Source of the DNA: Arachnia propionica
GTDB lineage: Bacteria; Actinomycetota; Actinomycetes; Propionibacteriales; Propionibacteriaceae
Assembly: GCF_037055325.1 (NCBI RefSeq)
Contig: NZ_CP146373.1
Span: 3,100,001 to 3,164,000, forward strand
Length of the DNA: 64,000 nucleotides
Direction: 5' to 3'
Numbering within the stretch: position 1 is the stretch's first letter; each line of letters starts with the position of its first letter. The translations under genes and the position numbers were made by a program. A model generated the notes under the pieces. It worked only from the letters and a program-made list of their open reading frames with translations, did no database searches and was not told the origin of the DNA. Positions 24,303 to 36,911 of the stretch are shown here, in pieces.

Positions 24303-26036
24303 TCAGATGCCGGTTCTCGGCAGACCGGGTTTCACGACCTTCCCGCACGCGGGTATCGCAACCGTCCGAGTGAACACGAAGGAACCATTCTCCGCAGCAG
24401 CCCATCCTTCCGGCAGGTTCTGTCCATCAATGGTTCTGCCCGCCTCAGCAGTTGCGGTGACCTGGATCGTCGCGCTGTTTCCGTTCTTGGTGACCCTCGG
24501 CTCGGAGTAGACGATCCCCGCGGTGGGAGTGATCTTGACCGTCGGTTCTGTCGGCTCGGTACCACTCACGGGGCACGTCCCGGGCTTCACCTCGACCGCC
24601 CCCAGGGTCACAGCGACTGTTTCTGGGGCCGGAGTCGGAGTCGGACTCAGGGCCGGGTTATCGCTCGCGACGGCATCCGCCGAGTTGGTGAGGGTCACCT
24701 CGCGGGTTTTCAAGCCCTCAACCGTCACCTGGGCACTGTTCGCGTCCGGGGCGTTATCGGCCACGCCGTCTCCGGAGAAAGCAGGATCACCGAATTTGAA
24801 CCCTGCCACAGAGGGCACCTTCTCCGTGAGCGTCACAACGACCCCATCGGGGACGTTGTTGAGGGGTTCCATGGTCCCGTCACCTTTCAGCGACAATTCG
24901 CCACTGCGGGTGTCACCCTTGTACTGGTAGGACCAGGACACCGGGTAGGTGGTCGCCGGATCGACCTTTTCGCCGGTGACCACTTTCTTCAGCTCGAGGT
25001 GTCCGACGATCGCGCCGGTCCCGACGCCTGCGCCCGACTGATTCTTCTCGGCGTTGGCAACGAGCAGCTCGCCGTCCACGGTGGCCCGGTTCATGTACTT
25101 GCCCCCGACGGGGATCTCCCCGCCGGTCTTCAGTTCCAGATCGAGCACGTAGATCCGGTCGGCTTGGAAGTTCTGACCCTTGTTGTCGAGGGTGACCTTC
25201 ACCTGATCCTTGTCATCATCAACGGCAACCGCAGCCGACGGCACACTGGAGGCATCCAGGTCATGGCGGCACGCCGCGCTGCTAAGCTCTCCCCAGCACT
25301 CCGGCGTCGCGGGGACCCAGAAGACCTTGGGGTACCCCTCCGACATGGTCAGAGTGGCGCCTTCCTGTCCGTACTCGTCGACGATGGTCGCTTCGGATTT
25401 CCCGGAGATCTTGGAACCGGGGATCACGACGCGCCAATACACGGCTGTCCGATCAGTCCCGGGGAACCACCCGGATTTGCTGGTCTCGGTCGGAAGGATG
25501 GGGCTGTATCCGATCTCCTGCTGTCCTTCAGGAAGCGGAACCTGAACCTTCACCCCGTTACTAGTTTCAAATTCAAGCGAGCTGGCCTTCGTCGTCTCCT
25601 TCACCTGAGTCTTCACCCAGAACGATCCGTTAACGTCGTGTTTGTTTTCAACATTCTTGTTGAGAGTGCAGACGACCTCACTGAGAGCGGCTTCGCAGCC
25701 CCCGTAGGTGACCGATTCATCATCCTCATCCTTGAGGTCGAAGACACCCTCGAACGCCCCAAGTTCCTTGGGCAGCACGAGCTTGAAGGTGTCACCGGCC
25801 TTCGCCGCACCGTCCGGGATGCGCCATTGCGCAGCGACCCGGGCAACACTCCACTTGTAGAGCGCCGGCTCCTCATCGGTCAGTTTCGTGATCTCGATGC
25901 TGGAAGTATCGATCGCCGGGATTTCAGCCGCCCCAGCCTCGGAACTCGTGACAACAACCCCGGACAGCCCGAGCAGGGACGCGAAGAAGAAAGCCAACGG
26001 CCTTCCTAATCCGCGAACTTTAGGTGTTTTCAACAT
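24303..26036 (-). CDS. Secreted adhesin A1 with DUF5979 domain and terminal LPRTG
   Basis: 577 residues. Signal peptide residues 1-36 (LAFFFASLLGLSGVVVTSSEAGA). Residues 38-330 are an SdrG-like/adhesin beta-rich region with WRIPDGAAKAGDTFKLVLP. Residues 335-450 match DUF5979 (LELKKVVTGEKVDPATTYPVSW, VTLTEKVP.V.GF.FGDP.F). One repeat of about 90 residues with two Cys follows a Pro/Thr linker. The last residues are KPGLPRTGI, so the sortase-type motif is at the very end with no hydrophobic anchor or basic tail. TAAGGAGGGGAA precedes the ATG. Likely a secreted surface adhesin. It is a paralog of the proteins at 31621 and 34830 with fewer repeats. Confidence 0.82.
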   Translation of the reverse strand: MLKTPKVRGLGRPLAFFFASLLGLSGVVVTSSEAGAAEIPAIDTSSIEITKLTDEEPALYKWSVARVAAQWRIPDGAAKAGDTFKLVLPKELGAFEGVFDLKDEDDESVTYGGCEAALSEVVCTLNKNVENKHDVNGSFWVKTQVKETTKASSLEFETSNGVKVQVPLPEGQQEIGYSPILPTETSKSGWFPGTDRTAVYWRVVIPGSKISGKSEATIVDEYGQEGATLTMSEGYPKVFWVPATPECWGELSSAACRHDLDASSVPSAAVAVDDDKDQVKVTLDNKGQNFQADRIYVLDLELKTGGEIPVGGKYMNRATVDGELLVANAEKNQSGAGVGTGAIVGHLELKKVVTGEKVDPATTYPVSWSYQYKGDTRSGELSLKGDGTMEPLNNVPDGVVVTLTEKVPSVAGFKFGDPAFSGDGVADNAPDANSAQVTVEGLKTREVTLTNSADAVASDNPALSPTPTPAPETVAVTLGAVEVKPGTCPVSGTEPTEPTVKITPTAGIVYSEPRVTKNGNSATIQVTATAEAGRTIDGQNLPEGWAAAENGSFVFTRTVAIPACGKVVKPGLPRTGI

Positions 26037-26063
26037 TTCCCCTCCTTACGCCACGGAAGTCTA
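26037..26063 (-). promoter_or_regulatory. -10 element and ribosome site of adhesin A1
   Basis: Minus strand TAGACT (26058-26063), then a 21-base leader including TAAGGAGGGG before ATG. The leader matches that of adhesin A2 (34525-34550) in order and sequence; a convincing -35 is not seen. Confidence 0.5.
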
Positions 26064-26223
26064 TGCCCTCACCCCCTTCCTGAGGAGCAACACAACAGAC
26101 AGTGCACAAGATTGACACTCGTCACGGCGAAAGCACCGATCGGCCAGCCCATCGGCATGCACTAGTGCCTTTCGTTACTTTCCTTTCGGCGCATGGGGCG
26201 GCAATGATGTGGCCAAACCCCGG

Positions 26224-34807: not shown

Positions 34808-34829
34808 TATTCATCACACCGTTCGGGTC

Positions 34830-36911
34830 TCAGGCGCCGGTCTTGGGCAGACCCGGTTTCACCGGCGGCGTAAGCGGCCTGACCGGGGTCGGGGTCGGGG
34901 TGACCGTCGGCGTCGGGCTCGGGGTGACCGTCGGCGTCGGGCTCGGGGTGACCGTCGGGGTCGGAGTGACCGTCGGGGTCGGCGTCGGACTCGGCGTTGG
35001 GGTCGGGGTCGGTGTTGGTGTTGGGGCGCTACACACCGGCTGATCCTTAGTAGTAGTGAACGTCGCACTAGTTTCACTCACCCGGGTCCAACCCTCAGGC
35101 AACACACCACCAAACTGGAACCCAGCCTTCGCAGTAGCAGTCGCCGTAACAGTCACCTTCCCGTCCTTGACCTCAATCTTCGGCTCGGAGAACTCCACAC
35201 CCTCAACCGGATCAAACGACGCGGTCGGAGGTGTCGGAGTCAACGAATCCGCAGGACACGTACCCACATCAATCTTCGGAGCAACCGGAACCACACACTT
35301 CGGCTGCGTCACCGTCGTCGTATAGGTCACAACCCCACCAACAACAGCCCAACCCTCAGGCAAATTCGCAGTATCAATCCGATACCCAGACTTCGCCGTC
35401 GCAGTAACAGTCACACTCACCCGATCACCAACACTAGTGATAACAGGCTCCCCATAATCAACCTGCTCGGTATCCTCAACACCCGAAACACTCGGCTGAC
35501 TAGGGGTAGTCGAATCAACCGGACACACCCCCGCCTTTACAACCGGAACCACCGGCACCACATCCCGAGTACACGTCGGCTGAGCAACAACCTTGGTGAA
35601 CGTGAAAGAACCATCACCATTCGCAACCCACCCCTCAGGCAGGTTCTTCTCATCAACCTTCTTCCTAACCGTCGGCGTAGCAGTCACCTTGACCGTCACC
35701 TGATCCCCAGCCCTGGTGAACTGCGGCTGGGAATAGGCGATGCCCTTGCTCACACCGATCGTCACGGTGGGATCGGATGGCTGCGTGACGTCCGCAGAGC
35801 ACACTCCCGGGCTCACGTCAACGGTGGCGAGTTTCGTGGCGATCGGATTCGTCATCGTGACGAAGAGGCCGAAAGAATCACCAACCTTGAGCTGAGCACT
35901 CCTGGCATCCGGAACGCCGCTGGTGAGATCAGGCCCAGTGAACGTCGGATCACCAAAACTGGCCCCGGGCACATCGGGTTGGTCCTCAGTGAGCGTGACA
36001 ACAGTCCCGTCGGGAACGTTGTGCAGTCCCGCGATCCGCCCCTGGCCCGTGAGCGTGATAATTCCGCTGCGTTCCTCACCCTCGTAGGTGTAGCGATACC
36101 GAACGGTGAAAACCGCGTCATTCGGAACCCGGTCATCACTCACGTTCATCTTCGGAGGGTCCTGCGCCTCGGGCCGGGACTGCCGCCCGGCGCCCGACGT
36201 GATTTGTTGGTCCGTGAAAAACTTGCGAACCGTAATTCGATTCACCTTCGAAATATCTCTCTTGGAGGATCTATTAACGATACTCCCGTTCGTATATCTG
36301 CCGTTGACATGGGCGTCGTTGTTGAAGAACGATCCTGTCAGAATCTTTTCCTTGACCTTGAGATCGATCTCCAGGACGTAGACGTACTCATCGGTGAAAT
36401 TGGCTCCGTTGGCGTAGGTCACGTCGACGGTGTCCGCATCGTCATCGATCTTCACGGTAGCCTTGCCACTGGCCCCACCCGCTTCGGGATAGAGGGTCTG
36501 GCTGCAGTCAGGGGCAGTCGTGTCCCGCCGGCACTGCTCGGTGTTGCGGACCCGATAGAGGGTGACGCCGTTCTCCTTCACGGCGAAGGTGGAACCGGTC
36601 AGCCTGTACTTGTCCTTGATCGTGAGTGTGTCCCTGCCCGTCATGACTCCACCCGGAACGGTGATGGTCCATTTGACACCATCGGCCGGGGCTCCGGTCA
36701 GGACACCTTTGTTGGTGATGGTTTCATTCACAACCGGCGTGGTTCTGGTGTCTTCCTGTCTCACAACACCGGGCGCTTTCATCCCACCGGAATCTGCCAC
36801 CAGGCCATGAGAGGGCGGCGGGCTGATCCATGCTCCCGCTACGCCCATCAATGCCGACATGAGCAGAGCAACTGATCGCCACCCCCTTCGCGATGTCGTT
36901 GTTCTCCTCAC
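34830..36911 (-). CDS. Secreted adhesin A3, three-repeat protein with terminal LPKTG
   Basis: 693 residues from a GTG at 36911, chosen because GAAGGGGGA lies five bases upstream; a TTG at 36968 would add 19 residues. N-terminal signal peptide (WRSVALLMSALMGVAGAW). The region after it (residues 40-270) differs from A1/A2 and has TVTVP-like adhesin strands (VKWTITVPGGVMTGRDTLTI). A DUF5979-like domain (FTVRYRYTYEGEERSGIITL ... VVTLTEDQPDVPGASFGDP) is at about 270-370. Three Cys-paired repeats, a long TPTPSPTP stretch and KPGLPKTGA follow. The final motif has no membrane anchor behind it. Repeats are nearly identical in DNA to A2 (35032-35731). Likely a surface adhesin that varies its N-terminal binding head. 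Confidence 0.82.
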   Translation of the reverse strand: MRRTTTSRRGWRSVALLMSALMGVAGAWISPPPSHGLVADSGGMKAPGVVRQEDTRTTPVVNETITNKGVLTGAPADGVKWTITVPGGVMTGRDTLTIKDKYRLTGSTFAVKENGVTLYRVRNTEQCRRDTTAPDCSQTLYPEAGGASGKATVKIDDDADTVDVTYANGANFTDEYVYVLEIDLKVKEKILTGSFFNNDAHVNGRYTNGSIVNRSSKRDISKVNRITVRKFFTDQQITSGAGRQSRPEAQDPPKMNVSDDRVPNDAVFTVRYRYTYEGEERSGIITLTGQGRIAGLHNVPDGTVVTLTEDQPDVPGASFGDPTFTGPDLTSGVPDARSAQLKVGDSFGLFVTMTNPIATKLATVDVSPGVCSADVTQPSDPTVTIGVSKGIAYSQPQFTRAGDQVTVKVTATPTVRKKVDEKNLPEGWVANGDGSFTFTKVVAQPTCTRDVVPVVPVVKAGVCPVDSTTPSQPSVSGVEDTEQVDYGEPVITSVGDRVSVTVTATAKSGYRIDTANLPEGWAVVGGVVTYTTTVTQPKCVVPVAPKIDVGTCPADSLTPTPPTASFDPVEGVEFSEPKIEVKDGKVTVTATATAKAGFQFGGVLPEGWTRVSETSATFTTTKDQPVCSAPTPTPTPTPTPSPTPTPTVTPTPTVTPSPTPTVTPSPTPTVTPTPTPVRPLTPPVKPGLPKTGA
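35032..35731. repeat. 700-base direct repeat shared with adhesin A2, copy 2
   Basis: Partner of 32351-33050 (offset 2681). The same codons are used in both copies, which points to recent duplication or gene conversion. Confidence 0.85.

Follow-up and report, generated by a model that had tools for sequence, protein, structure and literature searches.

The window analysed here (64,000 bp, bases 3,100,001-3,164,000 of the 3.31 Mb single-contig genome of Arachnia propionica, RefSeq GCF_037055325.1, contig NZ_CP146373.1) contains three genes, A1, A2 and A3, whose products end with an LPxTG motif followed by a single residue and the stop codon. We propose that this C-terminal end, [RK]PGLPxTGx, probably acts as a minimal wall-sorting signal lacking a tail: a class F-like sortase would split it at the T-G bond, join the protein to peptidoglycan and release a dipeptide. 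The end is exact and recurs on unrelated proteins, it follows a proline/threonine (P/T) linker, most of the complete frames that carry it have signal-peptide-like N-termini, and it co-occurs with a sortase gene.

The sequence agreed with the ends reported in a first-pass annotation of this DNA: A1 terminates in KPGLPRTGI and both A2 and A3 in KPGLPKTGA, always with an immediate stop, so that neither a hydrophobic segment nor a basic tail follows the motif. Profile searches detected no PF00746 or TIGR01167 match in any of the three. The same annotation had placed a strong terminator 22-24 bases after each stop codon. Strong hairpins do exist there, with pairing that starts about 17-23 bases past the stop, but they have no clear T-run; a consensus terminator scan, which wants one, did not list the hairpins of A2 and A3 and showed the region not to be enriched (9 sites versus 8.2 expected). 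All three proteins have signal-peptide-like N-termini according to a heuristic. Big_8, an Ig-like domain, was recognized in A1 (E 5.7e-14, together with DUF5979, E 3.7e-9) and in A2 (E 8.4e-13), and no Pfam domain scored above the cut-off in A3. Not all start codons given by the open reading frame (ORF) tool are correct; for A2, a start at 34524 (967 amino acids), directly upstream of the signal peptide, appears more likely. The closest named homologs of the window genes belong to Arachnia propionica, Arachnia rubra and [Pseudopropionibacterium] massiliense.

Judging from their sequences, A1, A2 and A3 are paralogs, with identities, in the aligned part only, of 59% between A1 and A2 and 56% between A2 and A3 (585 columns). 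The three like ends of the window may therefore stem from one event, and we rejected their interpretation as three independent ones. The argument of the first-pass annotation that an end repeated three times cannot be due to chance thus proves little, although its conclusion was upheld by the unrelated families and the genus-wide excess described below. As a separate observation, A2 and A3 (31621-36968) have near-identical repeat modules in common, suggesting recent exchange between these neighbours.

A search of the whole genome for LPxTG-x-stop yielded 13 matches, versus 7 for the reversed pattern, which served as the control in our pattern counts. Ten of the 13 were in long frames belonging to several unrelated families, all of the form [KR]PGLPxTGx and most of them preceded by a linker rich in proline, threonine and serine; the other three, in frames of 9, 22 and 51 amino acids, were plainly chance matches. 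Two additional genes, encoding thioester-domain proteins, end in LPKTGSN, which brings the genome to at least 12 tail-less genes, ten with one residue past the G and two with two. Outside the window, Pfam searches identified among them an SdrD_B/DUF5979 protein, a 5'-nucleotidase, three thioester-domain proteins, a DUF7926 protein, a GDSL lipase with VWA and PKD domains, and two further Big_8/DUF5979 proteins (one Big_8 match being slightly below the cut-off). The term adhesins, applied earlier to A1-A3, is consequently too narrow, as proteins with 5'-nucleotidase, endonuclease/phosphatase, GDSL lipase and PhoX phosphatase domains carry this end too. Only two canonical anchors, with LPLTGG, membrane segment and basic tail, were found in this genome; one was below the Pfam cut-off and both adjoin a class C (pilus) sortase gene.

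Counting these ends in related genomes, as the first-pass annotation had recommended, revealed a strong excess in the genus, taken here as Arachnia plus Tessaracoccus (39 genomes): PGLPxTGx-stop had 183 matches versus 3 for the control and was present in 32 of the 39 genomes. One genome scored as negative (G034) has one motif gene with a stop outside the pattern. Canonical PF00746 anchors were detected in 26 of the 39 genomes of the genus, with a total of 44 at E up to 0.01. In the entire family set (198 genomes) the pattern was found in 51, including 19 of the 159 outside the genus, where several single matches may be due to chance. Across 217 genomes of the order outside the family, the full pattern was at background level (5 matches versus 4). 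A phylum-wide feature was not supported either: the looser pattern, LPxTG-x-stop, gave 125 matches versus 99 for the control in 37 same-class or same-order rows, summed from a 396-row comparison in which some distant families showed small excesses.

Within the family, nine Cutibacterium-like genomes (G059-G067) exhibited the looser pattern 125 times versus 19 for the control, with 7-19 matches per genome (control 0-5). We took their genus to be Cutibacterium because one protein of G064 is identical to a C. namnetense protein. Among 24 of these loci that we read, 22 were in frames of at least 150 amino acids and 16 had Val as the last residue; the PG upstream of the motif is less strict in these genomes.

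The distance to the stop is fixed as well. In three genomes picked for their motif richness, with complete listings, 38 of 98 motif starts had the first TGA past CTGCC-NNNN-ACNGG exactly one residue beyond the G, all other distances accounting for at most 5 each. Coincidence was rejected on the basis of this fixed distance, the genus excess and the background level outside the family.

We characterized 116 distinct sites, namely the ten of our genome (A1-A3 included) and the rest from among the matches listed, which come from motif-rich genomes rather than from a random sample; apparent chance matches such as L040, L041 and L174 were kept in the counts. One hundred sites were in frames of at least 150 amino acids, with 26% proline in the 40 residues upstream of the motif in these 100 long frames. 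The residue before PG is basic (R or K) in 104 sites and may represent a contact with a sortase subsite. In 102 sites the x of the motif is one of S, K and R, and A, R, S or N predominate at the final position. In 97 sites the stop is followed by a strong hairpin, compared with 33 after shuffling, and a hydrophobic stretch in any frame past the stop was detected in only 4, with none in the other 112, in agreement with the claim of the first-pass annotation that no anchor is hidden downstream. Signal-peptide-like N-termini were recognized by the same type of heuristic in 45 of 59 complete frames versus 75 of 316 control frames, the latter drawn while the site set still held the duplicates L107, L117 and L126. 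A Pfam scan of 82 long frames, some of the longest and shortest being omitted, found 48 families, including 5'-nucleotidase, PhoX, endonuclease/phosphatase and polysaccharide lyase 8. We agree with the earlier suggestion that the end may mark a different way of handling the protein.

Homologs retain the same end. For A2, 111 of 119 homologs, on many separate contigs, end with LPxTG plus one residue; five, all distant and two of them named Microbacterium, have a canonical tail; and three have neither end, two of these showing the variants PMPKTGN and PGPPKTGA. For the 5'-nucleotidase, the best 120 of 339 homologs included 74 with the one-residue end, 6 with two to six residues, 1 with a canonical tail and 39 without the motif by the test used, a few of these with variants such as PMPRTGA. 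The tail-less end therefore occupies the place that a canonical anchor has in distant relatives and does not reflect an assembly fault.

The search for a sortase gene proposed in the first-pass annotation returned two genes, one class F-like and one class C, located at 154 and 418 kb and thus not adjacent to the window genes (3124-3137 kb). The class F-like protein matched PF04203 above the cut-off (29.5 bits versus 26.6). The AlphaFold model of an 87% identical relative (mean predicted local distance difference test, pLDDT, 82.6) displays an N-terminal helix and a sortase barrel, and Foldseek found sortases as the best solved matches to it (E 1.5e-7, target template modelling (TM) score 0.62); the protein is thus predicted to have a sortase fold with an N-terminal membrane helix. 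His, Cys and Arg residues (H144, C216 and R229), which we take from their positions to be the sortase triad, were invariant in alignments of 12 and of 18 sequences, a sampling of the co-occurring genomes rather than each of the 49 singly.

Several observations weigh against assigning the motif to this enzyme. Its only NCBIfam match, NF033748 (64.8 bits, E 6.7e-18), is under the cut-off of 166, hence the label class F-like, and the sequence alone had no significant match in the PDB (best sortase E 0.56). The gene was found in 49 of the 51 motif genomes versus 48 of the 147 others, with a Fisher p of 1e-16 that is not corrected for descent, and inside the genus the association is weak and only suggestive (Fisher p 0.08). 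Three of the 49, all from outside the genus (G090, G107 and G168), combine weak sortase matches (E 1e-5 to 9e-13) with one motif each; G087 and, without a sortase match, G076 likewise have one motif. Such single matches may be due to chance, as is that of G006, in a 14-amino-acid frame. In the genus, G039 has no class F match, yet it has PGLPxTG genes with tails of 1-13 residues (L224-L237), along with one canonical anchor. Conversely, no clear PGLPxTG gene accompanies the sortase in G010 (3 of its 7 looser matches read), G017, G022 and G024, the last of which is 60% complete. On the other side, the genus genomes G037 and G041 have neither the sortase nor a clear motif gene. Experimental work adds that Clostridioides difficile cannot do without the hydrophobic segment and charged tail (PMC5569036) and that deletion of all four class F sortases in Actinoplanes produced no phenotype (PMC13251363).

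Taking both sides into account, it is likely that the class F-like sortase is the enzyme and that anchoring occurs. The protein would be exported by Sec, its P/T linker would span the wall, and its free C-terminus would present LPxTG plus one residue to the sortase; this would cleave between T and G, with loss of the dipeptide, and join the Thr to peptidoglycan. Part of each protein would probably escape into the medium, because no tail retains it at the membrane. Sortase ligation work uses about one residue past the G as a minimum (LPETGG). LPETGG has been employed as a soluble sortase substrate (PMC9126251), and an added LPETG peptide was built into staphylococcal walls by SrtA (PMC3929722). 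In oral streptococci, AbpA, with the short signal LPKTS-AVK and neither hydrophobic segment nor charged tail, is anchored by SrtB and was detected in the medium as well as on the wall (PMC4974636). The statement of the first-pass annotation that sortases need a hydrophobic segment and a basic tail was therefore too strong, and the incorporation of the LPETG peptide by SrtA, together with the tail-less anchoring of AbpA, makes the proposed mechanism plausible.

Another enzyme might read the motif, for instance the class C sortase, which would add these proteins to pili, or some other processing enzyme. We consider this unlikely. The class C sortase does lie beside two LPLTGG anchors, and in G039 there are motif genes although no class F sortase was detected; but the class C gene sits with two pilin-like neighbours in a separate cluster that has canonical tails, and a search for PF00746 anchors at E up to 0.01 found none in the motif-rich genomes G029 and G031. 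Moreover, C. acnes is reported to have a single sortase, of class F and active on LPXTG (PMC7913060), and the Cutibacterium-like genomes share this kind of end.

The idea of plain secretion, with the motif left over from an anchor since lost, appears still less probable. In its favour, a C. difficile substrate was released into the medium once its whole sorting signal was deleted (PMC5569036), and the C. acnes protein DsA1 is thought to be partly secreted (PMC5527093). However, a relic would be expected to decay, whereas unrelated proteins across most genomes of the genus retain the motif at exactly the same distance from the stop, and the R or K before PG likewise argues against it. Finally, an anchor hidden by sequencing error, frameshift or stop read-through would suit the four sites with a membrane-segment-like frame past the stop, but the other 112, the frequent downstream hairpins and the A2 homologs make it exceedingly improbable. 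No missed base is needed to explain an end that so many homologs share on separate contigs, and the ends are not coincidental. We thus rejected this explanation and retain the tail-less sorting signal as the favoured one.

The precedents differ from the present set in several aspects. As in AbpA, the motif lies within a few residues of the C-terminus, but AbpA is a single protein with an adjacent sortase B gene and has AVK after LPKTS, whereas here many unrelated proteins per genome have LPxTG plus usually one residue and the class F-like sortase gene is distant. Another precedent is DsA1, from the same family, a surface adhesin with a signal peptide and PT repeats like the proteins described here, whose authors remarked that its LPXTG lacks a membrane-spanning domain or charged tail (PMC5527093). 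That remark concerns one protein, with the motif at position 411 of 432, and in the available part of the article comes without a census, a fixed stop distance or a link to class F. The class F sortase SrtF of C. acnes acts on LPXTG and, according to a review, has 19 predicted substrates (PMC8200545), and C-terminal LPXTG proteins have been counted in three skin propionibacteria (12, 15 and 18; PMC3848858). Canonical LPXTG signals (PF00746, TIGR01167) share the pentapeptide near the C-terminus, the linker-bearing proteins and the signal peptides, but they have the hydrophobic segment and basic tail that the proteins described here lack. Missing tails are not mentioned in the accessible parts of PMC6160142, PMC2212713 and PMC13257024. 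In the literature consulted, which did not extend to Di Girolamo 2019, where a remark may exist, we found neither a census of tail-less LPxTG ends in Propionibacteriaceae nor any account of the end being fixed, extending over unrelated proteins or being limited to the family.

The window also contains other genes. Between A1 and A2 (26224-30859) there are genes for a zinc metallopeptidase, a LuxR-type response regulator and a CAAX-type protease, as well as an ORF resembling, by eye, a histidine kinase. ESX-like type VII secretion genes are located at 14188-23947 (EccD at 14188, FtsK/SpoIIIE at 16636), with a proline-rich MinD-like ATPase on either side (12291-13997 and 22214-23947). Type VII secretion is not favoured as the export route of A1-A3 because these proteins have Sec-like signal peptides.

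Table 1. Genes, tail-less motifs and hairpins of the window (window positions), and sortase and thioester-domain genes elsewhere in the chromosome (chromosome positions). MFE, minimum free energy.
Feature	Position	Strand	Basis or details
A1, Ig-like (Big_8, DUF5979), signal-peptide-like start, 577 amino acids, end KPGLPRTGI	24303..26036	-	ORF, Pfam
A1 tail-less LPRTGI motif and stop codon	24303..24323	-	sequence, pattern search
Hairpin 3' of A1 stop	24241..24279	-	MFE -31.7 kcal/mol in 42 nt
A2, Ig-like, repeat modules, P/T linker, end KPGLPKTGA	31621..34611	-	ORF, Pfam
A2 tail-less LPKTGA motif and stop codon	31621..31641	-	sequence, pattern search
Hairpin 3' of A2 stop	31566..31599	-	MFE -30.9 kcal/mol in 42 nt
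A3, A2 paralog, P/T linker, end KPGLPKTGA	34830..36968	-	ORF, identity to A2
A3 tail-less LPKTGA motif and stop codon	34830..34850	-	sequence, pattern search
Hairpin 3' of A3 stop	34771..34812	-	MFE -33.2 kcal/mol in 42 nt
Class F-like sortase (second own sortase)	154319-155041		Pfam, NCBIfam
Class C sortase, beside two canonical LPLTGG anchors	417.75 kb		NF033745, E 2.4e-73
Three tandem thioester-domain genes (L189)	1.673-1.677 Mb		ends LPKTGSN (two), LPRTGR (one)

The textbook sorting signal consists of three parts, and some searches demand every one of them; in the Actinoplanes study, for example, a membrane segment and basic residues were both obligatory (PMC13251363). A three-part search would miss most of the candidate surface proteins described here for Arachnia and Tessaracoccus, and those in the Cutibacterium-like genomes. 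The physiological roles of class F sortases are stated to be unknown (PMC13251363), and the set described here supplies concrete candidate substrates for them along with a simple rule, LPxTG plus one residue. In a broader and rather doubtful extension of the proposed mechanism, Propionibacteriaceae might have exchanged the membrane-held sorting signal for a soluble one, and nearly their whole non-pilus surface proteome might consist of PGLPxTGx-COOH proteins that are secreted and recaptured from outside by the class F sortase, forming a coating of adhesins and enzymes shared between a cell and its neighbours. If tail-less sorting is confirmed, membrane retention would be dispensable for wall sorting at the scale of a whole surface, which would reopen the questions of how a sortase meets its substrate and of whether surface proteins can be shared between cells.

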